From the NCBI RefSeq assembly GCF_040024445.1, contig NZ_CP157276.1, forward strand, positions 3,968,001-4,032,000: a stretch of DNA of 64,000 nt, given 5' to 3'. The notes under the pieces are model-generated. The model did no database searches, was not told the origin of the DNA, and worked only from the letters and a program-made list of their open reading frames with translations. The translations under genes and the position numbers were made by a program. Position 1 is the stretch's first letter. Every line of letters starts with the position of its first letter. The stretch is from Prescottella soli. Lineage in GTDB: Bacteria > Actinomycetota > Actinomycetes > Mycobacteriales > Mycobacteriaceae. Shown here piece after piece: positions 29,123-59,036 of the stretch.

Positions 29123-29156
29123 ACTTGGAACGGTAGTCTCTACTCCGGACGAATCA

Positions 29157-29246
29157 ACACGGGAGTCCCGAGGAGCGCGGGGCTGAGAGGGGGCCTGCCG
29201 GCCCCGACCGTCATACCTGACCCGGATCATGCCGGCGCAGGGAGTG
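29157..29246 (+). promoter_or_regulatory. TPP riboswitch (THI element)
   Basis: The conserved thi-box landmarks are present in order: GGCTGAGAGG at 29181-29190, then ACCTGACCCGGATCATGCC at 29215-29233, then GCGCAGGGAG at 29235-29244. These pair with the 5' strand near 29158-29168 (P1). A variable stem-loop (GGGGGCCTGCCGGCCCC) sits between. It precedes thiO with GGAG just after P1, so thiamin pyrophosphate probably blocks translation initiation of thiOSG. Confidence 0.95.
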
Positions 29247-29258
29247 AGGTGGAGAAAG

Positions 29259-30326
29259 TTGACCCGATCGGTTTCCGTCGTCGGCGGCGGTGTCATCGGT
29301 CTGTCCGTCGCGTGGCGGGCAGCGCAGCGTGGCTGGGCGGTCCGGTTGTACGACCCGGCACCCGGGTCGGGCGCGTCGTGGGTCGCGGGCGGGATGCTCG
29401 CGCCACTCTCGGAGGGCTGGCCCGGTGAGGAGCAGGCGCTCGCGCTGGGGGCCGCGTCGCTGCAGCGGTGGCCGGACTTCGGTGCCGAGCTCGAACGTAT
29501 CGCGGGCGTGACGCTGTTCACCTCGGACGACTCGCTGACCGTCGCGCTGGACGCCGCCGACGCCGCCGACCTGCACACGATCGCCGACTGGGTGGCCGAG
29601 CAGGGGCACGAGCTGCGCATCCTGAACCGCGCCCAGATCCGTGAACTCGAGCCGTCGCTCGGGCGCGGGATCCGGCTGGCACTGCAGGCGCCCACCGAAC
29701 TGGCCGTCGACAACCGGCTGCTGGTGCAGGCGCTGCGGACCGCGGCGGTGGACGCGGGCGTCGAGCTGATCGAGCACGCGGTGACCGATCTGGACGACCT
29801 CACCACCGACCAGGTGGTGCTGGCGGCCGGATCGAACTCGGCGCAGCTGTGGCCGGACCTGCCGGTGCGTCCGGTCAAGGGCGAGATCCTGCGGCTGCGG
29901 GCGCGCCCCGGGGTGACGCCCGCGCCGCGACGCACGATCCGCGGCAGCGTGCACGGGCGACCGTCGTATCTGGTGCCGCGCGCCGACGGCATCGTCGTGG
30001 GCGCGACGCAGTACGAGTCGGGCCACGACACCCAGGTGACGGTGGCCGGCGTGCGTGACCTGATCGCGGACGCGGAGGCCTTGATGCCGGCGATCGGCGA
30101 GTACGAGCTGTACGAGGCGAAAGCCGGTCTGCGCCCGATGAGTCCGGACAACTTACCGATCATCGGCCGCGTCTCGGACCGGGTGGTGCTCGCGACCGGG
30201 CACGGCCGCAACGGCATCCTGATGACCCCGGTGACGGCGGACGCGACGGTCGCGATCCTCGACGGCACACCATTGGTAGAGGCGGAAAGTGCCACCGCCG
30301 AACGATTTTCACCTGCGAAGGCTTGA
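29259..30326 (+). CDS. thiO: Glycine oxidase ThiO
   Basis: 355 aa FAD-dependent amine oxidase. It makes dehydroglycine (iminoacetate) for thiazole synthesis in aerobes. N-terminal Rossmann motif [16 protein letters not shown]; substrate/FAD region [14 protein letters not shown]-like sequence; C-terminal [15 protein letters not shown] and [14 protein letters not shown] start it at TTG 29259, preceded by GGAG at 29251-29254. An in-frame ATG at 29229 lies inside the riboswitch aptamer and is unlikely. It is first in the thiO-thiS-thiG operon. Confidence 0.93.
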
Positions 30327-44686: not shown

Positions 44687-46006
44687 GTGTTGGTGGACGG
44701 TGGCGCGCGTACGGAGCCAGTGCGGCTCACCGATCGAACCCGAAATGTCCTGGTAGGCGGTGGTGTCGCCGCCGTCGTCCTCGTCCTCACCGGGCTGCAG
44801 ATCTTCGCCTCCTCGCGCGGCTTCCAGGGTCCGCTCGAGAGCCTGCTCCACGATTTCGTCGGCACCCCCAAGTCGGCGTCCGTGCCGTGGGCCGGGCTCG
44901 CCCTCGCGATGGTCGGGCTCACCAACCGGCAGCGGGTGATCGCGCTGTCGAGCGCGGCCGGGATCGACGTCGTCATCGCCGCGATCCGCTACCTCGCGGG
45001 CGGACCGCTGACCGTCGGCAACGGTGCTGTGATCGTGTTGACCTCGATCGGCGTGTACGCCGGCGCGAAATGGCAAGGCGAGCAGCGACGCAGTGCCCTC
45101 ATGGGCGTCGGGCTCGGTGCCCTCCTGATCGTCGCCACCAAGTTCGGCGACGTGTGGCTGCAGATCACCGTCATCGCCCGCCCGATGGTCCTCGACCAGT
45201 ACGTCCAGCTCGCCGACCACGCCCTCGGCAACCCGTCGTGGGTGATGGGGAACGTGGTCGACGCCCTCGGCTCGATCGGCTACGGCGTCCTGCACTGGGT
45301 GTACATCGAACTGCCGGTCGCCGCGATCGTCATCGCGCTCTACCAGCTGCGCAAGGGCTGGCCGTCGCACCACCTGGTGCGCACCTTCCTCCTCATCGGG
45401 CTGATCGGGCCGGTCTTCTACATCCTGTTCCCGGTGGTCGGGCCCATCTTCGCGTTCGGCGCCGACGGCAACGGCTTCCAGGTCGGCGACTTCTGGCCGA
45501 GCGTCGTGCCGTTCGACGTGACGCCGTCGTCCATGCCGTTCGACGACGCCACCCCCCGCAACTGCATGCCCAGCCTGCACACCGCGTGGTCGCTCGCGCT
45601 GTTCATCCACTCGCGGCAGGGACCGTGGTGGCTGCGCTGGGGCGGCGCGTTCTGGTTCGTGTGCACGCTGTCGGCGACCCTCGGCTTCGGCTACCACTAC
45701 GGCGTCGATCTGGTCGCGGGCGTCGTGCTGACGCTGACACTCGAGTCGGCCCTGCGCGCCCCGGAGCGCGGGTGGGGCGGGTTCCGGATCCGGCTCGTCG
45801 CCGGCGGCGCCGTGCTGCTGGCGGCGCTGCTGCTGAGCTACCGGTACCTGGCCGTGGAGATCGCCGAGTACCCGATCGTGGCGACGCCGCTGCTGCTGGG
45901 CGTCCCGGCACTGTTCGCTTTCGCGTACTGGCGCACCTTCTACCGCCCGGTCTCCCCGCGTTTTGCGCACTTGTCGCTCCCGGAGGACGCCGCGTCGGCG
46001 CGATAA
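44687..46006 (+). CDS. PAP2-superfamily membrane protein, Aur1/Ipt1-like
   Basis: 439 aa, about ten helices. The lipid phosphatase/phosphotransferase motifs are FGADGNGF, then RNCMPSLHTAWSLALF and GFGYHYGVDLVAG (catalytic His in SLH and GYHYGVD). This places it with inositolphosphotransferase-like PAP2 proteins that handle lipid-linked phosphates outside the membrane. TACTAT at 44674-44679 ends exactly seven bases before GTG 44687, so I prefer that to ATG 44678, which lies inside the -10. The last 17 codons, including the TAA, are made of an intergenic repeat element. Confidence 0.85.
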   Translation: MLVDGGARTEPVRLTDRTRNVLVGGGVAAVVLVLTGLQIFASSRGFQGPLESLLHDFVGTPKSASVPWAGLALAMVGLTNRQRVIALSSAAGIDVVIAAIRYLAGGPLTVGNGAVIVLTSIGVYAGAKWQGEQRRSALMGVGLGALLIVATKFGDVWLQITVIARPMVLDQYVQLADHALGNPSWVMGNVVDALGSIGYGVLHWVYIELPVAAIVIALYQLRKGWPSHHLVRTFLLIGLIGPVFYILFPVVGPIFAFGADGNGFQVGDFWPSVVPFDVTPSSMPFDDATPRNCMPSLHTAWSLALFIHSRQGPWWLRWGGAFWFVCTLSATLGFGYHYGVDLVAGVVLTLTLESALRAPERGWGGFRIRLVAGGAVLLAALLLSYRYLAVEIAEYPIVATPLLLGVPALFAFAYWRTFYRPVSPRFAHLSLPEDAASAR

Positions 46007-46033
46007 GTGCGCAAAACGCGGGGGTGGGGAGAC
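45950..46033. repeat. Repeat element, inverted pair forming a 24-bp hairpin
   Basis: Left arm 45954-45977 and right arm 46000-46023 are reverse complements with one mismatch; both contain GCGCAAAACGCGGG or its complement. The outer blocks 45950-45957 and 46026-46033 (GTCTCCCC and GGGGAGAC) are also complementary but offset by a few bases. It lies at the convergent ends of the PAP2 gene and mnhG and overlaps the PAP2 stop codon. The same 18-base core recurs at 57.8 and 58.9 kb. Confidence 0.9.
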
Positions 46034-46034
46034 G

Positions 46035-46376
46035 CTAGCGGAACGTGCCGGGGGTGTCGTCGTGCTGGTCCATGAGCAGTCCGTCGCGCCCGCGCTGCTC
46101 GCGGTAGGCGACGCGACCCACGCTGTGCGCGATGACGGGCGCGGTGAGCAGCGTGAACAGGCCGATGAGCACGAGCATCCAGATGTCGACGTTGCCGTGC
46201 AGCCGGATCACCGCGCCGACCAGCACCAGCACCAGGCCGACGACCTGTGGCTTGGTGGCGGCGTGCATGCGGGAGAGGGTGTCGGGGAATCGGACGATGC
46301 CGATCGCGGCGGTGAGCGCGAGCAGCGATCCGGTCAGGATGCAGATCGCGGCCAGGACCTCGAGGAAGGTGTTCAC
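46035..46376 (-). CDS. mnhG: Mrp Na+/H+ antiporter subunit G
   Basis: 113 aa, three helices. Family pattern LLALTAAIGIVRFPDTLSRMHAATKPQVVG, then a second and third helix and a hydrophilic C terminus. Last gene of the Mrp operon. The GTG start overlaps the mnhF stop. Part of the multi-subunit complex that exchanges Na+ or K+ for H+ at the membrane. Confidence 0.93.
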   Translation of the reverse strand: MNTFLEVLAAICILTGSLLALTAAIGIVRFPDTLSRMHAATKPQVVGLVLVLVGAVIRLHGNVDIWMLVLIGLFTLLTAPVIAHSVGRVAYREQRGRDGLLMDQHDDTPGTFR

Positions 46377-46633
46377 GAGTCGTCACTCACCCGGAATCGG
46401 GCCACACTCACCGAGCCGACGAAGCCGACCAGGGCGAGCGCGACGATGGCGGGCACGATCGTGGTGTCGCCGCTGTAGGCGGCCCAGATCGACAGCCCAC
46501 AGATAGCAGTCGCGATGAGGGTGTCCATCGCCACCAGGCGGTCGAGGCTGCCGGGCCCCGCCAACAGTCGGTAGGTGGTGAGCAGCGCCGCCACCACCAG
46601 CATTGCTCCGGCGATGATCATCACGGCCGTCAT
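46373..46633 (-). CDS. mnhF: Mrp Na+/H+ antiporter subunit F
   Basis: 86 aa with three helices. The family signature is the loop RLLAGPGSLDRLVAMDTL after the first helix; PAIVALALVGFVGSVSVARF closes it. ATG 46633 overlaps the mnhE stop by ATGA. Sits in its usual place between E and G. Confidence 0.93.
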   Translation of the reverse strand: MTAVMIIAGAMLVVAALLTTYRLLAGPGSLDRLVAMDTLIATAICGLSIWAAYSGDTTIVPAIVALALVGFVGSVSVARFRVSDDS

Positions 46634-47202
46634 GCTCGATCCTCCCTGCCCTCTTCGTGGTACTCGTAGTCGCGCAGATGCCACGGCGCCGGCTGCCATT
46701 CCGAATCGCGCTCGAACGACGCGATGAACAGCCGCTCGAGCTGCCGCACCGAACGGTAGAACTGGTCCACGGACTTGGTCGTCCCGACGTCGAGGACGTG
46801 CACGTACACCGCGCGTCGGGCCTGGTCGACCTCGAGCACCATGGTGCCGGGGATCAGGTTGAGCACGTCGATGCACAGGGTGAGCACCAGGTCCGACTTG
46901 ATGCCGAGCTTGCAGCGCAGCACCCCGGTGACCGGCGGCGGTCCGGGACGGATCGCGAGCCATGCGACCTGCACACTCGACTGCGCGGCGTAGAAGATGA
47001 TCATCCAGGCGAGCTTGACCATCGACAGCAGGTGTACCCGGCCCTCGACCGGCACCCGCGGCAGCGGCAGCAGCCACATGATGAGCACGCCCACGATGAG
47101 GCCGCCGACCAGGTTCGCGATGCTGAAGGTGCCCCACAGCAGGATCCACACCAGCGCCAGCCACGCGAGGACGCCGACGCGGAGTACGCGTTCGCGGGTC
47201 AT
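46630..47202 (-). CDS. mnhE: Mrp Na+/H+ antiporter subunit E
   Basis: 190 aa. Two N-terminal helices (VLAWLALVWILLWGTF; ANLVGGLIVGVLIMWLLPL), a further membrane segment around LAWMIIFYAAQSSVQVAWLAI, then the conserved cytoplasmic part with NLIPGTMVLEVD and VYVHVLDVGT. ATG overlaps the mnhD stop (ATGA). The tail after residue 150 is longer than the minimal family length. Confidence 0.92.
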   Translation of the reverse strand: MTRERVLRVGVLAWLALVWILLWGTFSIANLVGGLIVGVLIMWLLPLPRVPVEGRVHLLSMVKLAWMIIFYAAQSSVQVAWLAIRPGPPPVTGVLRCKLGIKSDLVLTLCIDVLNLIPGTMVLEVDQARRAVYVHVLDVGTTKSVDQFYRSVRQLERLFIASFERDSEWQPAPWHLRDYEYHEEGREDRA

Positions 47203-48800
47203 CGGCCACCTCCCTCGCCCAGGACGGCAGTGATGTAGACGTCCCGATTCTGCAGGTCCTGCGCGGCGCGGTCACTGATCCCGATCATCGGGCCCGCGAA
47301 GACCGTCAGCGCCAGGCCGACGGCGGCGAGGCCGATCGTCGGCAACAGCATGAACATCGGCATCTTTCCGACGTCCTCGCGGTCGACGAACGCGATGTCC
47401 TCCTCGGACTCGTCGATCAGCGCCGACGGGCTGACGTCCGCGAGCTCACCCTCCGGGGCGTCGGCGCGGGCCCGCCAGAACGCCTTGGTCCAGACGCGCG
47501 CCACGACGTACAGCGTCAGCAGACTGGTGACGGTGCCGCCGGCGACGAGGATCCACGACAGCGCGCTCGGGTGCGCGACACCGGCCTGCAGCAGCGCGAT
47601 CTTGCCGATGAAGCCCGAGAACGGCGGGATGCCGCCGAGGTTGAGCGCCGGAACGAGGAACACGATCGCGAGCAGGGGGCTGGCCGCCGCGAGACCGCCG
47701 AGGCGGCGCAGCGACGACGACCCGGCCTGCCGCTCGATCAGGCCCACCACCAGGAACAGCGTCGTCTGCACGATGATGTGGTGCGCCACGTAGTACACCG
47801 CACCGGACAGACCGGCCTGCGTCGACAGCGCGACACCGAAGATCATGTAGCCGATGTGGCTGACCAGCGTGAACGACAGCAGACGCTTGATGTCGCTCTG
47901 CGCGATCGCACCGAAGATGCCGACGATCATCGTCAGCAGGCCGCACACCATGAGGACGTTGTCGAGCTCGCCCTGCGGGAACAACAGTGTGTGCGCGCGG
48001 ATGATCGCGTACACGCCGACCTTGGTGAGCAGGCCCGCGAACACCGCGGTGACCGGGGCCGGGGCGGTGGGGTAGGAGTCGGGCAGCCACGTCGACAGCG
48101 GGAACACCGCCGCCTTGATGCCGAACGCGACCAGCAGCACACCGAAGATCGCCATGCGGGTGCCGACGGGGACGTCGTCGAACCGCTGGGCCATCTGCGC
48201 GAGGTTGAGCGTGCCGGTGGCGGCGTACGCGAACGCGATCCCGCACAGGAAGATCAGCGACGACACCATCGACACCATGACGTACGAGACGCCGGCGCGG
48301 ACGCGGTCGGCGCTCGCGCCCAGCGTCAGCAGCACGAAGCTCGCCGCGAGCAGCACCTCGAACCCGACGTACAGGTTGAACAGGTCGCCGGCGAGGAACG
48401 CGTTGCACACGCCGGCCGTCAGCGCCAGGTACGTGGGCAGGAAGATCGACACCGGCTGGTGTTCCTGCCCGTCACGGATGCCCTGGCCGACGGCGTAGAC
48501 CATGACGGCGAGCAGCACGATCGACGACACCAGCAGCATCAGCGCCGACAACCGGTCGACGACGAGCGTGATACCGATCGGGGTGTCCCAGCCGCCCACC
48601 TGGATCGCGGTGGTGCCGAACCGGTCCGCGAGGTACAGCAGCATCGCGGACACACCAGTGACGCCGACCAGCGCGGTGATGGTGATCCAGCGCTGCGCGG
48701 TGGGCCGGCGGCCGACGATCAGCGTGACCGCCGCGGCGATCATCGGGATCAGGACCGGCAGCGGGGCGAGGGTGCCGATGAGGTCGGCCGAGAGCGTCAT
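47199..48800 (-). CDS. mnhD: Mrp Na+/H+ antiporter subunit D
   Basis: 533 aa, complex I NuoN/NuoM-like proton-conducting subunit with about 14 helices. Seen: FNLYVGFEVLLAASFVLL (conserved glutamate in helix 5), KAAVFPLSTWLPDSYPTAPAPVTAVFAGLLTKVGVYAI (the helix 7-8 lysine block, residues about 229-266) and a late lysine helix. ATG overlaps the mnhC stop (ATGA). A C-terminal cytoplasmic insert before the last helix is acidic. Confidence 0.95.
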   Translation of the reverse strand: MTLSADLIGTLAPLPVLIPMIAAAVTLIVGRRPTAQRWITITALVGVTGVSAMLLYLADRFGTTAIQVGGWDTPIGITLVVDRLSALMLLVSSIVLLAVMVYAVGQGIRDGQEHQPVSIFLPTYLALTAGVCNAFLAGDLFNLYVGFEVLLAASFVLLTLGASADRVRAGVSYVMVSMVSSLIFLCGIAFAYAATGTLNLAQMAQRFDDVPVGTRMAIFGVLLVAFGIKAAVFPLSTWLPDSYPTAPAPVTAVFAGLLTKVGVYAIIRAHTLLFPQGELDNVLMVCGLLTMIVGIFGAIAQSDIKRLLSFTLVSHIGYMIFGVALSTQAGLSGAVYYVAHHIIVQTTLFLVVGLIERQAGSSSLRRLGGLAAASPLLAIVFLVPALNLGGIPPFSGFIGKIALLQAGVAHPSALSWILVAGGTVTSLLTLYVVARVWTKAFWRARADAPEGELADVSPSALIDESEEDIAFVDREDVGKMPMFMLLPTIGLAAVGLALTVFAGPMIGISDRAAQDLQNRDVYITAVLGEGGGR

Positions 48801-49354
48801 CGTCGGCCTCCCGGCATCTCGGACTCGATCTCCCCGTGTCCCTCGTGCAGGTCCTCGTACGACTGGTAGTCCTCGGGGTCCTCGAGGAGGTCGACGGGAA
48901 TCGGGTTGCCCGCGGAGTCGAAGGCGTCGCCGCTCTTGGACGGCGCGCCGGTGACCGGGTCGTCGGACCGGTCGCGGTCCGGGGCCTCTGCGGGGCTGCG
49001 GCGCTTGGAGACCTTGGTGTCCTCGGTGTCGTCCTCGACGCGGTCCGCGGTGGTGATCTTGTAGGAGCGGTAGGCGAGGGCCAGCACGAACGCGGCGATT
49101 CCCATCGTGATGACGATCGCGGTGAGGATCATCGCCTGCGCGAGCGGATCGGCCATCTCCTCGTGCACCGATTCGCGGCCCACGATCGGCGGGTTGCCGG
49201 ACCGTCCGCCGATGGTGAGGATCAGCAGGTTGACGGCGTTGCCGACGAGCAGCAGGCCCAGCAGCATCCGGGTGATGCTGCGTTCGATCAGCAGGTAGAC
49301 ACCCGCCGCGGTGAGCACGCCGATGAGGATCAGCGACGCGAGATCGGCACTCAT
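48797..49354 (-). CDS. mnhC: Mrp Na+/H+ antiporter subunit C
   Basis: 185 aa. NuoK-like three-helix core in the first 110 residues: GVYLLIERSITRMLLGLLLVGNAVNLLIL and DPLAQAMILTAIVITMGIAAFVLAL. An acidic, disordered cytoplasmic tail of about 75 residues (EDDTEDTKVSKRRSPAEAP onward) is longer than in most homologues. ATG 49354 overlaps the mnhA stop by one base (TGATG). Confidence 0.93.
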   Translation of the reverse strand: MSADLASLILIGVLTAAGVYLLIERSITRMLLGLLLVGNAVNLLILTIGGRSGNPPIVGRESVHEEMADPLAQAMILTAIVITMGIAAFVLALAYRSYKITTADRVEDDTEDTKVSKRRSPAEAPDRDRSDDPVTGAPSKSGDAFDSAGNPIPVDLLEDPEDYQSYEDLHEGHGEIESEMPGGRR

Positions 49355-52188
49355 CAGGCGTTCACCTCCTCCTGCGCGTCGAGTCGGGCCCCGAGACTGC
49401 GGAGCACGTCGAGCACGAGGCCCACCACGATCAGGTACACCCCCAGGTCGAAGAACAGTGCGGTGACGACTTTGATGTGTCCGAGCAGCGGCAGCGTCAG
49501 CTCGAACACCGCCGACGACAGCGGCGGGGCGCCGAGGAACAGCGACGTCAGCGCGGTGCCGGCGGCGAGCGCGAGGCCCAGGCCGAGGATCTTCCCGGCG
49601 TCGATGGGCACAGTCTCGCCGAGCTCGTAGCGGCCGCCGGCGAGATACCGCAGCACCAGCGCCAGGCCCGCCGTCAGACCGCCCGCGAAGCCGCCGCCGG
49701 GCGCGTTGTGGCCGGAGAAGAAGAAGTACACCGACAGCACCATGATCGTCGGGAAGATCAGGCGGGTGGTCACCTCGAGCACCAGCGACCGGTGCCGCGG
49801 GTCGATCAGGTCGCCGCCGCGCAGCCACGTCGTCTCGGTGCTCGCCGACGCCGCGTCGAGCGCGAGGGTCGGGGCGTCGGCGACGCGCGGGGCGGTGCCG
49901 AACCGGCGATGCCGGAAGACGAGGCTGGCGACACCGGTGGCCGCGACCAGCAGCACCGAGATCTCGCCGAGGGTGTCCCACGCGCGGATGTCGACGAGCA
50001 GGACGTTGACCACGTTGCGCCCGTTGCCGAGGGCGTATGCGGCCTCCGGCAACTGGTGGTAGATCGGCGTCGAGCTGCGTGCGTTCATCGCGTAGGCGGC
50101 GAGCGTGGTGACCGCGGCGCCGACGCCGACGGCCAGGATCGCGCGCGGCAGCTTGAAGCCTATGGCCTGCCGCTCGTCGACTTCGGCGGGCAGCTTCCGC
50201 AGCACCAGCACGAAGATCACCAGTGTCAGCGTCTCGACCAGGAACTGGGTGAGTGCCAGGTCGGGTGCGCCGTGCAGCGCGAAGATGACGCCGCAGCCGT
50301 AGCCGCTGAGTCCGACGAGGATCACCGAGGTCAGGCGGTTGCGCATCACCGTGGCCGCCAGCGCGGCCGCGATCATCATCAGTCCGACGGTGAACTGCAG
50401 CGGCGACTCCCACAGCCGGATCTCGGCCCACACGTCGGTGCGCAGCGCCAGCAGGATCACCGGCAGTAGCACCAGCGTCGCGAGGATCGTCGACTGTGTC
50501 AGCGGCAGCGATCCACGCTGCGTGACGCCTGTCAGGCGGATCGACAGCGTGTCCATCGCGCGGAGCGTGGCGTCGTAGGCGCGGTCGGCGTTGCCGAGCG
50601 GCGGCGTCTGGAACCGCAGGCGCTGGACGGCCCAGCGGTGCGCGACGAACAGCAGCGCGCCGCAGCCGACGATCGCGCCGGTCAGCAGCAGCGGAGTGTT
50701 CACCCCGTGCCACAGCGCCAGGTGGTAGTCGGGGTGCGGGCCGGCGGGCAGCGTCGTCGAGTACGGCGTGAGTAGCTTCTCGAGCTGCGGCGACAGTGGG
50801 CCGGCGACCAGGCCCGCGACCGCGAGCAGGGCAGGCGGGGCCAGGAACAGCATGCTGGGGGCGTGCATGTTCGCGACGGCCGGGCTCGGTTGGCGCTGGC
50901 GCTTGCGGCCGAACGCGCCCCACACGAACCGGATGCTGTACGCGACAGTGAGGATCGAGCCGAGCGCGATCGCGACGACGATCGTCGTCCGCGCCCACGG
51001 CTCGAGCACGTCCGCGTCGAGGATCGATTCGAGTGCAGCCTCCTTGCCGACGAACCCGAGGAACGGTGGCAGTCCGGCCATCGACGCGGCCGCGAGCGCC
51101 GCGATCGTGGCCAACCAGGGCGCGCTCGGACCGAGGCGCGCGAGCTTGCGGATGTCGCGGGTTCCGGTGGTGTGGTCGATGATGCCGACCACCATGAACA
51201 GCGCGGCCTTGAACATCGCGTGCGCGACGACCATCGTCATGCCGGCCAGGGCGGCGTCGCGGGAGCCGACACCGACGAGCACCATCAGGAACCCGAGCTG
51301 GCTGACCGTGCCGAACGCGAGCACCAGCTTGAGGTCGAACGAGCGCAGTGCCCGCCAGCCCGCGAGCAGCATCGACGCCAGACCCAGCGAGATGATCGTG
51401 ACCCGCCACGGCGGGGAGTCGGCGTAACCGGGGGCCATCCGGGCGACGAGGTAGATGCCGGCTTTGACCATTGCGGCCGCGTGCAGGTAGCCGCTGACCG
51501 GGGTGGGGGCGGCCATTGCGCCCGGCAGCCAGAAGTGCAGCGGCACGATCGCCGACTTCGACAGCGCGCCGATCAGCACCAGCACGATCGCGACGCTCGC
51601 GAGCCACCCGCTCGGCGGGTTCGCGACGACGTCCGAGAGGTTGTAGCTGCCCACCAGCTGGCCGAGCATGATGATGCCGACCAGCATCGCCAGGCCGCCC
51701 GCGGTGGTCACCAGCAGCGCCTGCGTCGCCGCGCGGCGGCTGGTCGCGCGTTCGGCGTAGTGGCCCACGAGCAGGAACGACAGGACCGTCGTCAGTTCCC
51801 AGAACGTGTAGAGGATGAGCATGTTGTCGCTGGTCACAAGGCCGAACATGGCGCCCGCGAACGCGACCATCTCGGCGGCGAACATGCCGAGGCGGGGTTC
51901 GTCGTCGGTGAAGTACCGCGCACAGTAGACGAGGATCAGCGTCCCGACGCCCAGGACGAGCACGGACATGATCGCGGCCAGCGAGTCGAACCGCATGTCG
52001 ATGTTCATCGACAGCCCGGGCACCCACTGGATCTGCAGTTTCTGTTCGGTGCCCCAGTTCGCGATCACCCAGCCGAGGCTCGCGAGCGGAACGAGTGCGA
52101 GCGGGAAGAACGCATTGCGCCCTATTGATCGCACGACGAGCGGAGCCAGAACGGCAGCTATCGCGTGTGCGATCAATATGACAAGCAA
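49354..52188 (-). CDS. mnhA: Mrp Na+/H+ antiporter subunit A with fused B domain
   Basis: 944 aa. The first 500 residues are NuoL-like, with the lysine helix and LLVGHYAERATSRRAATQALLVTTAGGLAMLVG. Residues 620-780 are the MrpA-specific NuoJ-like part, including GAPDLALTQFLVETLTLVIFVLVLRKLP. The last 140 residues are the MrpB domain (TRLIFPTIMVLSVYFFFSGHNAPGGGF). The start is a TTG at 52188, six bases after GGAG; the longer frame above it is not membrane-like. TAAGAT at 52295-52290 could be its -10. First gene of mnhA(B)CDEFG. Confidence 0.93.
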   Translation of the reverse strand: MLVILIAHAIAAVLAPLVVRSIGRNAFFPLALVPLASLGWVIANWGTEQKLQIQWVPGLSMNIDMRFDSLAAIMSVLVLGVGTLILVYCARYFTDDEPRLGMFAAEMVAFAGAMFGLVTSDNMLILYTFWELTTVLSFLLVGHYAERATSRRAATQALLVTTAGGLAMLVGIIMLGQLVGSYNLSDVVANPPSGWLASVAIVLVLIGALSKSAIVPLHFWLPGAMAAPTPVSGYLHAAAMVKAGIYLVARMAPGYADSPPWRVTIISLGLASMLLAGWRALRSFDLKLVLAFGTVSQLGFLMVLVGVGSRDAALAGMTMVVAHAMFKAALFMVVGIIDHTTGTRDIRKLARLGPSAPWLATIAALAAASMAGLPPFLGFVGKEAALESILDADVLEPWARTTIVVAIALGSILTVAYSIRFVWGAFGRKRQRQPSPAVANMHAPSMLFLAPPALLAVAGLVAGPLSPQLEKLLTPYSTTLPAGPHPDYHLALWHGVNTPLLLTGAIVGCGALLFVAHRWAVQRLRFQTPPLGNADRAYDATLRAMDTLSIRLTGVTQRGSLPLTQSTILATLVLLPVILLALRTDVWAEIRLWESPLQFTVGLMMIAAALAATVMRNRLTSVILVGLSGYGCGVIFALHGAPDLALTQFLVETLTLVIFVLVLRKLPAEVDERQAIGFKLPRAILAVGVGAAVTTLAAYAMNARSSTPIYHQLPEAAYALGNGRNVVNVLLVDIRAWDTLGEISVLLVAATGVASLVFRHRRFGTAPRVADAPTLALDAASASTETTWLRGGDLIDPRHRSLVLEVTTRLIFPTIMVLSVYFFFSGHNAPGGGFAGGLTAGLALVLRYLAGGRYELGETVPIDAGKILGLGLALAAGTALTSLFLGAPPLSSAVFELTLPLLGHIKVVTALFFDLGVYLIVVGLVLDVLRSLGARLDAQEEVNA

Positions 52189-52386
52189 ATGGCACTCCGT
52201 CGGGTTGTGGGGCGGCGGGGTGACGAATCGGCGCGAGCCGAGAGTCGGGCAGGCCGTTCGCTTAACTAGCAAACCGGACTACGGGGTACATCTTACTGAG
52301 TGGCTCGAACTGGTCCGCAATCGGTGCAAACCGGACATTTGTGGCTAGGTCTGCGGCGGTATCGGGGCGGGAGTACGTTTCGACGG

Positions 52387-52809
52387 GTGTCCGACGAGAA
52401 CCCCATCGTGATCAGAACCGCCGCGCTCGCCCACATTCGGGACCGCCGCATGCTGCAGGCCCGGTCCGCGGGCAAGACCGCGTTCTACATGGCGGGCGGC
52501 AAGATCGATCCGGGCGAAACGCCTGAACAGGCCCTCCATCGGGAGATCCGCGAGGAACTCGACACCGACATCGCCCCCGAGAGTCTCCGCGAACTCGGCG
52601 TCTTCGAGGCGCCCGCCTTCGGGCACCGCCCGGGGACCCGACTGCACATGACGTGCTACCTCGCCGACCTCGTCGACGAGCCCCAGGCCACCAGCGAGGT
52701 CGCCGAGATCCGCTACTTCACCGAGGCCGAGTACGCCGCCATGCCCGAGACCGCGCCCGGGTCGCGGCTCGTCTTCGCAAGGTTGCGAGAGTTGGGCCTC
52801 GTGGACTGA
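52387..52809 (+). CDS. Nudix hydrolase
   Basis: 140 aa. Nudix box GGKIDPGETPEQALHREI then REELDTDI is complete, with hydrophobic framing TAFYMAGGK. Substrate not deducible; the size fits a small NTP or dinucleotide hydrolase. TACGTT at 52374-52379 plus seven bases and GTG 52387 gives a leaderless start. Divergent from the Mrp operon with 198 bases between, which hold only promoter-like sequence. Confidence 0.9.
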   Translation: MSDENPIVIRTAALAHIRDRRMLQARSAGKTAFYMAGGKIDPGETPEQALHREIREELDTDIAPESLRELGVFEAPAFGHRPGTRLHMTCYLADLVDEPQATSEVAEIRYFTEAEYAAMPETAPGSRLVFARLRELGLVD

Positions 52810-52855
52810 CGCGCGCAGACTCGTCACCCGCGCGCACCATCGTGCGCGCGGGGCG

Positions 52856-54178
52856 TCAATGCGCGGGCGGGACGGACGGCTGGGCTCGCAGCCCACGGAT
52901 CGCGAGCGCGCAGAAGACCACGACCAGGAGCAGTGCGACGCCGGCGCCGCGGTCGAAGTGGACGGGGCTGTCGAACGAGACGTCGACTGTCCCACTCGCC
53001 AGAGGGACGTCCGGCAGCGGCTCGTAGCTCCCGCTGTAGATCACGAACGAGGTCGTGGCGGCGACCAGGGTGGTGAACACCAGCGACAGCAGCGGCACGA
53101 CGAGTCCCAGTGCAGCGACCGCTCCGCTGTCGGGGAGGGTGGAGCAGAGGGCGAGTCCGATGCCGACACCGAGCACTGCGAGTTGGACGAGCTGGAGTGC
53201 GCGGCTGTCTCCGGTCGTCGGATCGATCGCGATCCACAGGGGGATGACGGTCAGCGCGGCGACTCCCGTTACGGGTGACGGTCGTCGCCAGGCCACGGCT
53301 GCCCCCGCCACGACGGCGGCGACGCCGACGGTGACCGGAATCCACGGCTGGAGTCGCAGGTGCTCCTGGGCGAGCAGGGTCCCCACGGGAGCCGCGGATG
53401 CCGCTACCGCCGTCGCGGCGAGCAGGAACGGAGCGTCGAGGCGCCGCGCCCAGAACTCGGTGAGGGCGACGACCACCACGAGGCACAGCCCGACGACGAT
53501 CCACAGCCGGAACCGTGACCCGCTCTGGCCGGCGATCCAGGCACCGAGCAGTCGGTGCCCGACGGCCAGCGTCAGCACCGCCGCGATCACCTCGCGCATC
53601 GTCCCGGCGTCGGCACGCGCGGGTGCTTCGGTGTCGACCACGGCGCACACGGCCGCGAGGACGATCGCGGGAACCAGCACCCACCAGAACGGCTCGCCGA
53701 GCATCGACGTGCTCGGTGTCCAGCCGGAGTCCGCGGTGTGGGCGACGACGAACGTCGCGGCGACTGCGATCGTGAGGGCGAGGCGGGGGACGGCCCGCGA
53801 CCACGCCGCGGCCACGACGGCACCCAGCAGGACGCCGCCGGCCACGCACTTGGCGTAGTACAGCACCGTCAGCTGATCGAGATCGCTCACGCCCGACACC
53901 GCGAGGCGCGCCGCGATCAGGACGGCCGTGGCCACGACCGCCGTGATCCACGCGGGTCGAGCCGAACCGCCGCGCTGGAGCGCCCCGTATGCGAGTACCG
54001 CGACGACGCAGCCGACGGCGACACCGGTCGGCAGGGTGGCGTTCCAGTCGTCCAACTGGCGCTCGGATGCACTGAACAGCGGTCCCCATTGGGGGCGGCT
54101 GATGAGGACGAACGTCCCCAGCACTCCCGCGAACGCGGTGGCGACGGCCGACAGGGACAGGCGGGCGTTCGGTGTCAT
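52856..54178 (-). CDS. Polytopic membrane protein of unknown function, duplicate copy 2
   Basis: 440 aa, about 12 helices. No family recognised. It is clearly paralogous to the adjacent upstream gene: both share YYAKCVAGG or HYAKCVAGG, LGAWI-GQ, ALTEFWARRLD-PFLLAATAVAA and PLLSLVFT at matching positions. TAACGT followed by seven bases and ATG 54178 gives its own leaderless promoter. It faces away from the 52387 Nudix gene. Confidence 0.8.
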   Translation of the reverse strand: MTPNARLSLSAVATAFAGVLGTFVLISRPQWGPLFSASERQLDDWNATLPTGVAVGCVVAVLAYGALQRGGSARPAWITAVVATAVLIAARLAVSGVSDLDQLTVLYYAKCVAGGVLLGAVVAAAWSRAVPRLALTIAVAATFVVAHTADSGWTPSTSMLGEPFWWVLVPAIVLAAVCAVVDTEAPARADAGTMREVIAAVLTLAVGHRLLGAWIAGQSGSRFRLWIVVGLCLVVVVALTEFWARRLDAPFLLAATAVAASAAPVGTLLAQEHLRLQPWIPVTVGVAAVVAGAAVAWRRPSPVTGVAALTVIPLWIAIDPTTGDSRALQLVQLAVLGVGIGLALCSTLPDSGAVAALGLVVPLLSLVFTTLVAATTSFVIYSGSYEPLPDVPLASGTVDVSFDSPVHFDRGAGVALLLVVVFCALAIRGLRAQPSVPPAH

Positions 54179-54198
54179 CGGCCCGACGTTACCTGCAG

Positions 54199-54240
54199 CT
54201 CAGCGGCTTTCGGCGCACGCCTTCAGGTGTGCCACCAGGT
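54199..54240 (-). pseudogene. Remnant of the AAA ATPase 3' end left by duplication
   Basis: 42 bases match 55588-55629, the end of the AAA ATPase gene, at 37 of 42 positions without gaps. Read on the minus strand it gives VAHLKACAESR and a stop at 54200; the intact gene ends VAHLKAYAENR. It sits 21 bases before membrane protein copy 2, just as the intact end sits 17 bases before copy 1. Confidence 0.85.
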
Positions 54241-54254
54241 TCGGGGCGGGGGTG

Positions 54255-55571
54255 TCAGTCCGCGCGCGGGACGGGACGGGTGCGCAGTCGGCGGATGGCG
54301 AGGGCACAGTAGAGCACGACGAGCAGGAGCGCGATGCCCGCGAGGCGGCTGCCGGGCGCGTGGGTCGCGGCGGTGGCCCCGAACTGACCGCCCGGGGTGC
54401 TCGAGGGAGGCTCGTGCGCGCCGCTGTAGATGGCGATTGCTCCGTCGGACTGCGCGACGTAGGTGAACACCAGCGACAGCAGGGGGACCGCGAGACCGAG
54501 CGACGCGAGCGCACCGTCGTCGGGCAGGGTCGAGCCGAGAGCGAGCCCGATGCCGAGCCCGAGCACCACAAGTCGTGCCAGGAGCCAGGAGCGGCCGTCG
54601 CCGAGGTCCGGATCCAGCGCGGTCAGGAGCGGGATCGCAGCGAGCAGCGCCAGCCCGAGCGGGAGGGACGGACGCCGGACCGCGACGGCCAGCCCGCCGA
54701 CCACCGCCGCGACGCCGACCACCACCATCAGCCACGGCTCGAGCGTGAACTGCCGGGCAACCTGCGGCGTGACGACCGCGGTAGCCGCGGCCACCGCGGT
54801 CGCCGCGAGGAGGAACGGGCTGTCGAGGCGCCGGGCCCAGAATTCGGTGAGGGCCATCACCAGCACGAGGCAGACACCGATGAAGCTCCACACCTGCAGC
54901 TCGGAGTCGGCGGTCTGCCCGTCGATCCACGCGCCCAGCATGCGGTGGGCGATGGCGAGGGTGACCGCGGCCGCGATCACCTGGACCAGGATCCGGTCCG
55001 GCGTGGCGGTCGTGACGTCGGCAGTATCGATCACCGCGCACACCGCGGCGAGGACGAGCGACGGGATCAACAACCACCAGAACGGCGGGCCCAACGTCGA
55101 CACGCTCGCTTCCCCGGTGGCGTGCGCGGTGTGTGCGACGACGAATGTGGAGGCGACCGCGGCGACCAGGGCGAAACGCGAGAGGGGACGTACCCACACT
55201 GCGGCGACGGCCGCACCGAGCAGCAGCCCGCCGGCCACGCACTTGGCGTAGTGCAGGGTTGTCACCTCGGCCAGCCCGTGCACGCCGGGGACCGCGATCC
55301 GGGCCGCGATCAGCACACACGACGCGACGACAGCGGCCATCCACGCCGGCCGCGCCGATCGCGGGCGCCGCAACGCGACGTAGGTGGGCACCGCGAGGGC
55401 AGTGCCGATCACGGATCCGGTGGGCAGCGCGTCCAGCCACCACTCGAGCTGGCGGCCGGTCACGTTGATCGTCCCGCGCCACTCCGGCGGGTTGGCGAGC
55501 ACGAACGTGGCCAGGGTGCCCGCGAACCATGCGGCTACGGCGGGTACCCACTCACGGACGGTCGGGGCCAC
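54255..55571 (-). CDS. Polytopic membrane protein of unknown function, duplicate copy 1
   Basis: 438 aa, about 12 helices with an extracytoplasmic loop near the C terminus (IYSGAHEPP). Paralogue of the next gene downstream; shared blocks run through the whole length, so the duplication is complete. Function unknown. TAGCGT ends six bases before GTG 55571, giving a leaderless start from a promoter placed directly after the AAA stop codon. No catalytic motif stands out; a buried cysteine/lysine pair (AKCVAGG) is conserved in both copies. Confidence 0.8.
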   Translation of the reverse strand: MAPTVREWVPAVAAWFAGTLATFVLANPPEWRGTINVTGRQLEWWLDALPTGSVIGTALAVPTYVALRRPRSARPAWMAAVVASCVLIAARIAVPGVHGLAEVTTLHYAKCVAGGLLLGAAVAAVWVRPLSRFALVAAVASTFVVAHTAHATGEASVSTLGPPFWWLLIPSLVLAAVCAVIDTADVTTATPDRILVQVIAAAVTLAIAHRMLGAWIDGQTADSELQVWSFIGVCLVLVMALTEFWARRLDSPFLLAATAVAAATAVVTPQVARQFTLEPWLMVVVGVAAVVGGLAVAVRRPSLPLGLALLAAIPLLTALDPDLGDGRSWLLARLVVLGLGIGLALGSTLPDDGALASLGLAVPLLSLVFTYVAQSDGAIAIYSGAHEPPSSTPGGQFGATAATHAPGSRLAGIALLLVVLYCALAIRRLRTRPVPRAD

Positions 55572-55588
55572 GTTCCGACGCTAGCCCC

Positions 55589-57763
55589 TCACCGGTTCTC
55601 GGCGTACGCCTTCAGGTGTGCCACCTGGTCGGGGTCCAGCGACGGCCGCACTTTCTCTCGGGCCGCGGCGACATCTTCCGCAGTCACATCGGCGGCGTCG
55701 ACGCTGCGCCGCATCGCCGCGAGTGCTGCCTCCCGGAGCACGGCCGAGCAGTCGGCTGCGGAGTAACCCTCGAGGTCCTGCGCCAGGGCATCGAGGTCGA
55801 CGTCGTCCGCGAGTGGCACCGACCTGCCCGACGTGCGCAGGATCTCCTTGCGGGCGTCCGCGTCCGGCGGCGGCACGAACACCAGGCGTTCGAGGCGTCC
55901 GGGGCGCAGCAGCGCGGGATCGATCAGGTCGGGCCGGTTGGTGGCGCCGAGCACTACGACGTCGCGCAGGGGTTCGACGCCGTCGAGTTCGGTGAGCAGC
56001 GCGGCCACGACCCGGTCGGAAACGCCGGAGTCGGAGCTCTGCCCGCGGCGCGGGGCCAAGGCGTCCACCTCGTCGAGGAAGATGAGCGACGGCGCCGAGT
56101 CGCGGGCGCGCTGGAACAGCTCGCGCACCGCCTTCTCGGACGCACCCACCCACTTGTCCATCAGCTCGGCGCCCTTGACGGCGTGCACGCTGAGCTGTCC
56201 CGAACTGGCCAGGGCACGAACGAGGTACGTCTTGCCGCAGCCCGGCGGCCCGTACAGCAGGACACCGCGCGGCGGATCGACGCCCAGGCGCGCGAACGAA
56301 TCCGGGTGCTGCAGCGGCCACAGCACCGCCTCGGTGAGGGCCTGCTTGGTCTCGACCATGTCGCCGACGTCGTCGAGGGTGACGCTGCCGATCGCGAGTT
56401 CCTCGGTGCCCGAACGGGACAGCGGGCGGATCACGTGGAGGGCGCCGAGCAGGTCCTCCTGGGTGAGCCGCGGCTCCGACTTGGCGCTGCTCGCCCGCGA
56501 CGCGGCCCGCAGCGCGGCCTCGCGGCACAGCGCCGCCAGGTCGGCTACGACGAATCCGGGTGTCCGAGATGCGATCTCTGTGAGCTCGAGGTCCGCGGTG
56601 GGAACCTTGCGGAGCAGCAGTTCCAGCAGCTGGCGGCGACCCGCGCCGTCGGGCAGCGACAGCGACAGTTCGCGGTCGCACAGGTCCTGGCCGCGCAGGC
56701 GGTCGTCGAGCCCCTCGGGATGGGCGGTGGTCGCGACGAACGCCACCGACTCGGTCTCCACGGCGCGTCGCAACTGGTCGAGGATCAGCGTCGAGACCGG
56801 TTCGCGGACGGCGGGCAGCAGCGCGTCGACGTCGGTGACGAGCAGGACCCCGCCGGAGCGGACGGCGTCCACCGCGGCGGTCACCCGCTCGAGCCGCGAC
56901 TGCGCCTCGGACGCGCCGACTCCCGGGCCGTCCAGTTCGACGACCCGTCGTTTCGCGAGAACGGACCGGGCCAGCATCGACTTGCCGACACCGGCGGGTC
57001 CGGTGACGAGCACGCCCAGATGCGGTGAGGCCCCGAGCTTCTGCAGCAGTTCGGGTTCGTCGAGCGCGAGCGTGAGCCACTCGGACAGCTTCGCGGCCTG
57101 CGCGTGCGCGCCGACCAGATCCTCGACGGGGACGACGTCCGACGCGCGGGGCTCGGTGATCGTGGGGGCCACCGCCGTCTGGGCGGGGCTCGCATGCGCC
57201 ACACCGGATCCCCAGCTCACCGCGGAATTGGGTTGCACGCTGACCGGACCGTCCGACGGATCGACACCGGTCACGGTCAGCAGTTCGGAGGTCCAGGTGA
57301 CGCCGAACGTGCGCGACAGCGCCTGCGTCGCCGACGTCGTACTGGTGCCCGGTCCCAGGTCCCGGGGCAGCAGGGACACGGCGTCACCCACGGTGAGGAC
57401 CTTGCCGAGCAGTGCCTGCCGCAGTGTCGTGTCCGAGATCGACTGCTGCGCCATCGCCGAACCGCTCACCGTGACCGCGCGGGCGCCGTACACCGTGGCC
57501 GGTGCGACCACCACCGTCGCGTTCTCGCGCAGACCGGAGTTGGACAGGGTGACGTCGTCGAGCAGGGCGGTGCCGGTGGGGGTTCCGGCCGGCGCGATAC
57601 CCGCGACCGCGGCGGTGCGGCGGGCACCGATCAGCGCGATCGCGTCCCACTCCCGCAACCCCAGCGCCGCCAGCGCCTCGGGGTGCAGGCGCACCACTCC
57701 GCGGCGGGCATCCGCGGCGGACGTGTTGAGCCGGACCGTGAGCGTCAGTTCGGGTGATGTCAC
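55589..57763 (-). CDS. CDC48-type double AAA+ ATPase (Rv0435c homologue)
   Basis: 724 aa. The N-terminal double-psi barrel/CDC48_N region spans about residues 1-170 (VRLHPEALAALGLREWDAIALIG). The first AAA domain has Walker A GPAGVGKS but a Walker B reading LLVTDVDAL, without the catalytic glutamate. The second has intact GPPGCGKT, LIFLDEVDAL, GATNRPDLIDPALLRPGR and arginine finger. The hexamer probably unfolds or remodels proteins using ring two. TAGGCT, seven bases and GTG 57763 set a leaderless start ten codons inside the longest frame. Confidence 0.9.
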   Translation of the reverse strand: MTSPELTLTVRLNTSAADARRGVVRLHPEALAALGLREWDAIALIGARRTAAVAGIAPAGTPTGTALLDDVTLSNSGLRENATVVVAPATVYGARAVTVSGSAMAQQSISDTTLRQALLGKVLTVGDAVSLLPRDLGPGTSTTSATQALSRTFGVTWTSELLTVTGVDPSDGPVSVQPNSAVSWGSGVAHASPAQTAVAPTITEPRASDVVPVEDLVGAHAQAAKLSEWLTLALDEPELLQKLGASPHLGVLVTGPAGVGKSMLARSVLAKRRVVELDGPGVGASEAQSRLERVTAAVDAVRSGGVLLVTDVDALLPAVREPVSTLILDQLRRAVETESVAFVATTAHPEGLDDRLRGQDLCDRELSLSLPDGAGRRQLLELLLRKVPTADLELTEIASRTPGFVVADLAALCREAALRAASRASSAKSEPRLTQEDLLGALHVIRPLSRSGTEELAIGSVTLDDVGDMVETKQALTEAVLWPLQHPDSFARLGVDPPRGVLLYGPPGCGKTYLVRALASSGQLSVHAVKGAELMDKWVGASEKAVRELFQRARDSAPSLIFLDEVDALAPRRGQSSDSGVSDRVVAALLTELDGVEPLRDVVVLGATNRPDLIDPALLRPGRLERLVFVPPPDADARKEILRTSGRSVPLADDVDLDALAQDLEGYSAADCSAVLREAALAAMRRSVDAADVTAEDVAAAREKVRPSLDPDQVAHLKAYAENR

Positions 57764-57795
57764 GTCCGCCAGCCTAGTGATCGGCACCCCCACCT

Positions 57796-57899
57796 ACGTT
57801 TCGCGCACTTGACGCGCGTGCACCTCCCTCCACTCCGCGTTTTGCGCACTTGTCGCGGAGATTCGGGCCGCGCCGTCCCGGCAAGTGCGCAAAACGCGG
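57796..57899. repeat. Repeat element: one diverged copy and an inverted pair (hairpin)
   Basis: 57796-57811 is a diverged copy (ACGTTTCGCGCACTTG). 57835-57852 and 57882-57899 are perfect 18-base reverse complements of the same core, CAAGTGCGCAAAACGCGG, with a 29-base loop. They lie in the divergent region between the AAA ATPase and DUF559 starts, so a simple terminator role does not fit. Confidence 0.88.
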
Positions 57900-57966
57900 T
57901 GGCGAGGGGCTGTGAAGAACCTCTGCGACTGTGGATAACTCGGTGGTCGGACGGCCGATCGATCGC

Positions 57967-57983
57967 CACGGTAGGGCACCGTG
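57967..57983. promoter_or_regulatory. Short palindrome before the DUF559 gene
   Basis: CACGGT-AGGGC-ACCGTG, a perfect six-base inverted repeat with a five-base centre, ends eight bases before ATG 57991. It could be an operator for the adjacent gene or a hairpin at its ribosome site. No further support. Confidence 0.35.
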
Positions 57984-57990
57984 ACCGGTC

Positions 57991-58878
57991 ATGAGAAGGA
58001 AGAGACCGGAGCTACCCGACGTGTTCGTCGGGCGCGACGCGGTGCGCGACGGCGCTCTCACCGCTGCGGACCTGCGGGGGCCGCGGGTGCGCCGACTGTT
58101 CCGCGGCGTCTACTGCCCGACCGGTGTGCGAGTCAGCCACGAATTGCGTTGTCGAGCCGCCGCCCTCACCGGGGAGGGTGCGCTGGTGCTCACCGGCCGG
58201 TCAGCGGCAGCCGTGCGCGGTGTCGACCTGGCATCGGCGTCGGACCCGGTGGACGTGATCGCGCTACCGAACTGCCGGGTCAACCGGCGCCCCGGGTTGA
58301 ACGTTCGGCGTGTGGCGATCGACGCCGGCGACTACCACCCGTGGGAGCAGATCGCGATCGCTAGCCCCGAACGAATGACGTTCGATGTGCTCTCGACGGG
58401 GCCGCTGCTTCGCGCGGTCGCCGACGTCGACCGAATCCTGCGAGCGAAGCTCACGACCCAGGGCCGCATGGCGTCGTATCTCGAGGGACGCCACGACCAC
58501 GGGATCGTGCGGGCACGGGAGGCGCTCGCGCTCGTCGATCCGCGCGCCGAGTCGCCGCCGGAATCCGAACTCCGGGTGCGATTGCATCTCGCGGGTCTGC
58601 GTCCGGAGCCGCAACTGTGCATCTACGCGGACGGCAAGTTCGTTGCCCGGGTCGATTTCGGGTTCGAGGCGGAACGGCTGGCCGTCGAGTACGACGGTCA
58701 GTGGCACGGGCAGCGGTCGGCGCTGGCGAGGGACCGGGTCCGTCAGAACGCGCTCCGGAAGGCCGGCTGGCAGATCCATTTCGTCACCAAGGACATGATG
58801 GCGAATCCGGACGCGGTGATCGACGAGATCCACGGCGCCGTGCTGCGCGCACGGAGCACACGACCCCGCCACCTCTGA
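57991..58878 (+). CDS. DUF559/PDDEXK-type protein with AbiEi-like N-terminal domain
   Basis: 295 aa. Residues 10-60 resemble the winged-helix AbiEi antitoxin-like domain (VFVGRDAVRDGALTAADLRGPRVRRLFRGVYCP). Residues 190-290 resemble a Vsr-like restriction-endonuclease fold: ESELRVRLHLAGL, then VARVDFGFEAERLAVEYDGQWH (D and E-x-D metal positions), then RQNALRKAGWQIHFVT. This is a common, poorly understood actinobacterial family, perhaps a nuclease. No strong ribosome site precedes the ATG. The gene is bracketed on both sides by the 18-base repeat element. Confidence 0.82.
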   Translation: MRRKRPELPDVFVGRDAVRDGALTAADLRGPRVRRLFRGVYCPTGVRVSHELRCRAAALTGEGALVLTGRSAAAVRGVDLASASDPVDVIALPNCRVNRRPGLNVRRVAIDAGDYHPWEQIAIASPERMTFDVLSTGPLLRAVADVDRILRAKLTTQGRMASYLEGRHDHGIVRAREALALVDPRAESPPESELRVRLHLAGLRPEPQLCIYADGKFVARVDFGFEAERLAVEYDGQWHGQRSALARDRVRQNALRKAGWQIHFVTKDMMANPDAVIDEIHGAVLRARSTRPRHL

Positions 58879-58889
58879 TCCGTCGCGAC

Positions 58890-59028
58890 AAGTGCGCAGA
58901 ACGTGGGATCCCGCGCCCCGTCCAGCGCTAAGTGCGCAAAACGCGGGAACCAGCGCCCCGTCCCCGCGCTAAGTGCGCAAAACGCGGGAACGGGGCCCGG
59001 GAATCCGCGACAAGTGCGCGAAACGGGG
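58890..59028. repeat. Array of four direct repeats, period 40-41 bases
   Basis: Copies of AAGTGCGCAAAACGCGGG or close variants begin at 58890, 58930, 58971 and 59012. The sequence between copies is partly conserved (GCGCCCCGTCC in the first two). All four point the same way, with no inverted partner. They fill the 158 bases between the stops of the convergent DUF559 and pssA genes. Confidence 0.9.
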
Positions 59029-59036
59029 GAGCGGAG

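Follow-up and report, generated by a model that had tools for sequence, protein, structure and literature searches.

The window examined here, a 64,000-nt stretch of the Prescottella soli genome (contig NZ_CP157276.1, positions 3,968,001 to 4,032,000), carries a short intergenic element, termed family A, whose 18-base core recurs at three places. The locus raises the question of what such an element is and by which enzyme it could be spread. The initial annotation had listed nine copies, laid out as an inverted pair, a diverged copy with an inverted pair, and four direct copies, and had offered either a protein-binding site or a mobile palindromic repeat as their identity. Matching of the core with up to 3 mismatches recovered the same positions and layout, with nine matches against a mean of 0.04 and a maximum of 1 in 100 dinucleotide shuffles. 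What the annotation missed is that a single gene (57991-58878) lies between the second and third places, which form its two flanks, and that this arrangement recurs across the phylum with other repeats. We consider it probable that family A is a set of dispersed repeats resembling REPINs, the hairpin-forming doublets of repetitive extragenic palindromic (REP) sequences, that this gene encodes their cognate enzyme, and that the two together are a nuclease-driven analogue of REPs and the REP-associated tyrosine transposases (RAYTs).

Family A repeats and the nuclease gene between them

The relevant features of the window are:
45955..46022 (arms 45955-45972, minus strand, and 46005-46022, plus strand): family A inverted pair, 68 bp, REPIN-like
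57793..57810, minus strand: diverged single family A copy with 3 mismatches, 41 bp from the next copy and in direct orientation to it
57834..57900 (57834-57851, minus strand, and 57883-57900, plus strand): family A inverted pair between a CDC48-like gene (minus strand) and the nuclease gene (plus strand)
57991..58878, plus strand: nuclease A, 295 aa, with an AbiEi-like N-terminal part and a DUF559/MTES_1575 (Vsr-type) nuclease C-terminal part
58890..59029 (58890-58907, 58930-58947, 58971-58988 and 59012-59029), all plus strand: four direct family A copies with a period of 40-41 bp

The direct array is flanked by the nuclease gene and a pssA-like CDP-alcohol phosphatidyltransferase gene on the minus strand, and the pair at 45955..46022 lies between a convergent PAP2-family gene and gene 46035-46376 (minus strand). 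In order, the three places are convergent, divergent and convergent, as had been annotated, with the added detail that the PAP2-family open reading frame (ORF) ends at 46006, inside the first pair, so that the pair provides its last codons and stop. Copies are present in the promoter region of the nuclease gene. Folded as single-stranded DNA, the two inverted pairs reach z-scores of -7.24 and, for 57834..57900, -7.08, and the direct array lies barely beyond its shuffles (z -2.23).

For the C-terminal part of nuclease A, domain searches gave DUF559 (2.1e-7) and, just under the cut-off, the MTES_1575 nuclease (2.4e-9); the N-terminal part alone gives weak matches to AbiEi models (best 1.2e-4). 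A single PADLOC AbiEi model recognises each of the 24 aligned relatives at E 0.1 or better (best 1.8e-17), nine of the 24 match TIGR00632 (Vsr; best 7.8e-7), and structure 3r3p, a mobile-intron protein, is a weak sequence match (E 0.015). Vsr-type acidic residues are conserved: E191, D222, E233 and D235, which we take from family knowledge to be active-site residues, are invariant across the 24 aligned proteins. Purifying selection acts on nuclease A, with ratios of nonsynonymous to synonymous substitution rates of 0.08-0.26 in 28 pairwise comparisons of eight orthologues. No adjacent AbiEii toxin gene is found at the window locus, where the neighbours are a CDC48-like ATPase and the phosphatidyltransferase. 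Searches returned relatives of the nuclease on four plasmid records (28.7-32.5% identity) and none in phages. A further relative lies about 40 kb from the window gene (L416, G000:C1:4066000-4070000; tblastn, 34% over 254 aligned residues).

Across the genome from which the window comes (G000; 5.48 Mb, one contig), the core gives 47 matches at up to 3 mismatches, against 7 for the reversed pattern used as control, a number that we read as too high, since the pattern remains similar to the element when reversed. These matches group into 18 inverted-pair sites, two three-copy direct arrays and the four-copy array of the window, leaving two single, chance-like matches; at pair site 4817032 the second arm has 5 mismatches, and the pair site beside the nuclease has one extra copy. 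Eleven of the 13 other genomes of the genus also stand above the control, from 9 against 1 (G008) to 113 against 35 (G012), in line with the initial annotation, which had taken enrichment beyond this one window as the mark of a family. Family A is not enriched in G003 (2 against 3) and G011 (2 against 1). Each of 137 genomes of other genera has 0-9 matches, with controls in the same range, and a scan of named genomes with the pair pattern returned at least 120 stretches, all from Prescottella or Rhodococcus among the matches listed.

The family A unit has REPIN architecture, with mostly inverted pairs, fixed spacing, a variable loop and a mostly intergenic position. In sampled DNA that was largely chosen for holding pairs, so that the following are not genome-wide rates, 159 distinct inverted pairs have start-to-start spacings of 48 (1), 49 (97), 50 (60) and 52 bp (1). 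The main unit, represented by the 157 pairs at 49 or 50 bp, is about 68 bp long, and direct neighbours are spaced by 40 (6), 41 (42), 42 (9) or 50 bp (1). Across arms, the consensus reads CGCGATAAGTGCGCAAAACGCG, continuing with G-rich bases in G010 and G012 and, inward, with CACCGAT in G000; the two arms match each other at 416 of 420 core positions in G010 and at 400 of 406 in G012. Gene context could be assigned for the 132 of 197 clusters that lay far enough from locus ends: by rough counts, which rest on a simple codon-usage script for gene prediction, 65 are tandem, 42 convergent, 17 divergent and 8 within predicted ORFs, against a background in the same DNA of 611 tandem, 235 convergent and 208 divergent adjacent gene pairs. 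Overall, 124 of the 132 are intergenic, many of them near stop codons.

Nuclease and repeats are present or absent together at the locus. Orthologues of nuclease A (73-100% identity) occur in 9 of the 14 genus genomes, and eight of the nine have family A copies on both sides, the ninth (G004, frameshifted) having them on the 5' side only. In four genomes (G003, G006, G008 and G011) the CDC48-like gene directly neighbours the pssA-like gene, and neither nuclease nor repeats separate them. Over the 14 genomes both are present in nine and both absent in four, and one locus is unreadable (G005, where a contig ends at the array). In G003 and G011, nuclease A and family A enrichment are both missing from the genome as a whole.

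Away from the nuclease, orthologous sites also differ in what they hold. We compared 21 G000 clusters with stretches fetched from G008, a 79% complete assembly with frame breaks: both flanks were found for ten and nine were not found there, and the remaining two are the nuclease flanks, absent in G008 too. Clusters 3459050 and 4745481 are absent in G008, 4963961 and 5037129 are more decayed there than in G000, and 4817032 is diverged in both. Other sites hold something else there: G008 has an unrelated hairpin of the AGCTGAAGGGTCCCTTCA type at 3919220 (L323), a pair of another repeat family, G, at 4013955, a DUF559-related gene in two frames at 4852546, and about 1 kb of other DNA at 5062063. 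The content of the site at window position 45955 depends on the genome: G000 has an A pair there, G008 a G pair, G007 a nuclease gene of family G together with G repeats, and G004 nothing. Orthologous sites with and without the element, which the initial annotation had suggested comparing, were thus found, and the alignments were too diverged to give the exact ends of the element that it had hoped for. Among large inserts at pair sites, 6 of 27 insert spans, located at two sites with several spans per site, match a DUF559 protein; this is fewer than we had expected, and one of the two sites had been fetched for its DUF559 gene.

Other nuclease clades and their own repeats

Of 44 further DUF559 matches listed in the genus, 20 loci were fetched, and none of the 20 holds a family A copy at up to 3 mismatches. 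Many bear different paired repeats, which visual inspection divided into families B to G. A 24-protein tree places the nucleases with repeats A, B, C and D in groups of their own (supports 100/99, 99/97, 99/97 and 100/99), with E and G as single rows and a weak deep order. Repeat families A to D match nuclease clades.

The association was scored by a flank test, in which a repeat common to the upstream and downstream flanks of a gene is scored by one fixed scheme and 15 or more counts as a pass. Among the genus DUF559 loci, 13 of 20 pass. As a control, 464 predicted genes with nearly the same flanks gave 13 passes: 7 of the 9 DUF559-like genes among them and 6 of the other 455. Six of the seven are nuclease A orthologues and hence not independent, and of the two failing DUF559-like genes one is the G001 orthologue, whose start was mispredicted, and the other a weak relative. 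The passing genes of other types are an ABC-transporter ATPase (L337), an amino-acid permease (L335), a response regulator (L332), a gene with no Pfam match (L292), one that was not identified (L216) and the window gene 54255-55571 (minus strand). The last of these, with a score of 27, lies beside a look-alike: 52856-54178 and 54255-55571 are neighbours of similar size on the same strand and, by reading, apparent tandem paralogues.

Three repeat families are dispersed, namely A, H and the family of genome G036. The second G000 nuclease (4599653) is flanked on either side by repeat H, which gives 24 matches in G000 against a control of 1, 18 of them in nine inverted pairs 51-52 bp apart. Elsewhere, H numbers 28 in G008 (control 3), 23 in G001 (control 1), 0 in G006 and 1 in G012. 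Where H pairs lie about 850 bp apart, in G000 (L414) and G008 (L417), tblastn found no H or A nuclease enclosed. In G036, a 39-base palindrome flanking the nuclease has further palindromic copies elsewhere in the same genome, with 13 arm matches against 0 in the control and 0-1 in each of 11 other genomes, two of them congeneric; in the four dispersed copies that were fetched, most base changes in one arm have a mirror change in the other.

Furthermore, the association extends beyond the genus. PF04480 is present in 125 of 151 genomes of the family, and 12 of 30 DUF559 loci tested at this level pass the flank test, against 10 of 870 mismatched flank pairings. At the level of the phylum, a profile of the A nuclease matches 88 of 198 genomes, and 14 of 27 loci pass against 4 of 702 mismatched pairings; this sample held 29 loci besides the window's own, two of which were dropped for a short flank. 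At both levels the loci tested were the best-scoring ones and not a random draw. In one genus, g29 (G041, G063, G079 and G154), the profile matches 8 to 12 times per genome, which indicates that the nuclease is itself a multi-copy family there. On balance, we lean slightly towards the broader proposal that fusions of AbiEi-like and Vsr (DUF559) parts are a phylum-wide repeat-mobilising class, each making and maintaining its own REPIN-like hairpin family through cutting and host repair, with no transposase.

Proposed mechanism and competing explanations

In the mechanism that we favour, cutting by the nuclease would drive both the spread and the upkeep of the repeats. The AbiEi-like part would recognise the repeat arms, which would also permit autoregulation through the copies at the nuclease's own promoter, and the Vsr/DUF559 part would cut or nick at the pair. 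Host repair would then copy to new intergenic places either the pair alone or the nuclease gene together with the repeats around it; alternatively, repair would convert existing copies, so that the arms stay alike. What the data establish is how the repeats are built, their linkage to the nuclease, the correspondence between repeat families and nuclease clades, their shared presence or absence at the locus and the purifying selection on the enzyme; binding, cutting and a role of cutting in spread and upkeep are inferred.

Several other explanations draw on the same observations. The repeats could be purely regulatory, with an AbiEi-like repressor acting on operators, dispersed pairs serving as a regulon or as decoys, and the nuclease part doing something unrelated, such as phage defence. 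The match of all 24 aligned proteins to the AbiEi model and the copies in the nuclease promoter region would suit this explanation, and AbiEi represses its own operon through inverted-repeat binding in the available text of PMC7319586. We regard it as unlikely because copies also lie downstream of the nuclease gene and at gene ends, in the contexts counted above, because sites vary between relatives and are swapped between repeat families, and because the acidic nuclease residues are invariant. Between the two identities raised by the initial annotation, the mobile palindromic repeat is better supported, the copies being a family, mostly in inverted pairs, mostly intergenic and present or absent at orthologous sites; the protein-binding site may hold as well, because the cognate protein has an AbiEi-like part. 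Less likely again is a homing-like selfish nuclease gene that inserts beside passive, pre-existing repeats spread by another route. The weak match to 3r3p and the DUF559 genes sitting at two repeat sites in other genomes would fit such behaviour, and against it stand the absence of A repeats from the locus wherever nuclease A is missing and the distinct repeat of each nuclease clade, which suggests co-evolution. Y1 transposases, the sole other enzyme searched for, occur in 4 of the 14 genus genomes, and none of five Y1 loci holds a family A copy. RAYT involvement was rejected: PF01797 is found in those four genomes and in none of the repeat-rich G005, G009, G010 and G012, and in G000 the Y1 transposase lies more than 120 kb from the closest family A match.

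Host hairpins, retained for transcription as bidirectional terminators or stabilisers of mRNA 3' ends, seem improbable, although the strong folding of the pairs, their intergenic position and the proximity of many to stop codons are what such hairpins would show. Reading of the 3' sequence reveals no T run after the window pairs, an automatic terminator scan limited to loops of 3-8 made no call at them, the direct array folds barely beyond shuffles, and pairs are absent at orthologous sites in relatives; the view of the initial annotation that one terminator function fits poorly is borne out by the missing T run. We give a marginally smaller chance still to the view that the repeats are non-autonomous and depend on an unrecognised transposase encoded at another place in the genome: the pairs do look like minimal miniature inverted-repeat transposable elements (MITEs) with inverted ends, whereas cognate repeats flank DUF559 genes in many genera, with the search for transposases covering the Y1 type.

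A number of observations weigh against the nuclease-driven reading itself, the main ones being that G006 still carries copies and that no clear target duplications were seen. G006 has 31 family A matches (control 4) and G008 has the nine given above, both without nuclease A, so copies persist without the enzyme; cluster 4518144 is an intact pair in G000 and in G008 alike. G005 has 102 matches and, in a draft whose contig breaks at the array, no close nuclease A orthologue. At 3459050 and 4745481, empty in G008, which was the most informative genome for comparison, no clear target duplication is seen in intergenic DNA that is diverged, exact ends could not be taken from any filled and empty alignment, and movement was not observed directly. 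The flank test is failed by 7 of the 20 genus loci, three of the 20 having domain-only coordinates or a contig edge, and by 18 of 30 family and 13 of 27 phylum loci, some of which have domain-only coordinates, a short flank or estimated starts. In 1.72 Mb of sampled DNA biased towards A, families B, C, D and F give 3, 7, 4 and 8 matches away from the genes, against controls of 1, 12, 0 and 0. These counts demonstrate wide dispersal for none of the four families; the case for any dispersal is thin for B and is not made for C. Covariation between arms stands out in G000 and G005, is less marked in G002 and is not seen in G001, G009, G010 and G012, and was dropped as proof of a hairpin due to this mixed outcome. 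Finally, a Caulobacter DUF559 protein is proposed, in the available text of PMC12907096, to be a mismatch-repair enzyme and not a mobilising one.

Elsewhere in the window, the single Rfam match at the gathering threshold is a thiamine pyrophosphate riboswitch (29149-29260, plus strand, RF00059, E 3.7e-9), and the repeats match no RNA family. The gene row at about 46035-52272 (minus strand) resembles, from sequence alone, an Mnh/Mrp-type sodium/proton antiporter operon.

Relation to known repeat systems

The closest parallel is with REP/REPIN-RAYT systems. In the available text of PMC3116915, REPINs are extragenic inverted doublets with conserved ends and a spacer, a distinct cluster lies beside each cognate gene, and a genome may hold several repeat families. 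Family A and its relatives share the inverted arms at fixed spacing, the extragenic dispersal, a cluster of their own per cognate gene and several families per genome, and differ in that the enzyme is an AbiEi-like and Vsr/DUF559 nuclease and no Y1 transposase, and in that the GTAG terminal tag is not part of the arm consensus of G000, G010 and G012.

CGTC-tagged REPs, according to the available text of one survey (PMC3733652), are palindromic intergenic repeats with no known dedicated transposase, a trait shared with the repeats described here; theirs are mainly alphaproteobacterial and have shorter stems. Family B and C repeats (L182, L191 and similar) end in CGTC, like that class. A CGTC-REP query matched 12 plasmid records, and PF04480 was found in none of ten plasmid records, comprising nine of these 12 and pSymB, so that these records gave no link between the class and DUF559 genes.

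Known MITEs have transposases as partners, and their insertion usually duplicates the target. Family A pairs resemble them in being short and noncoding with inverted ends and in lying near a gene flanked by the same ends, since pairs and nuclease flanks share arms; unlike in MITEs, that gene is a nuclease and no known transposase, and no clear target duplication was seen in the diverged intergenic DNA compared. The AbiE type IV toxin-antitoxin systems share the AbiEi-like part and the inverted repeats at the promoter, while the window neighbours are not AbiEii, the nuclease is fused and the repeats are genome-wide. Vsr and Vsr-like homing endonucleases are kin in their nuclease domain (TIGR00632, 3r3p) and differ from nuclease A, which has an extra AbiEi-like part and cognate dispersed repeats.

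The repeats themselves are thus of REPIN form, and what is new is their pairing with an AbiEi-like/DUF559 type of enzyme; a search of open-licence literature found no published description of DUF559 genes linked with repeats. The interpretation in the initial annotation is partly supported. Many bacteria have short dispersed palindromes, and for some classes no spreading enzyme is known. The candidate enzyme described here belongs to a different superfamily from RAYTs, with each enzyme clade having its own repeat, and related nucleases might account for REP classes without a known transposase, such as the CGTC REPs. The outcome is a testable nuclease-target pairing and a candidate function for one group of DUF559 proteins, which may possibly form a natural collection of site-specific nucleases that differ in their recognition sequences.

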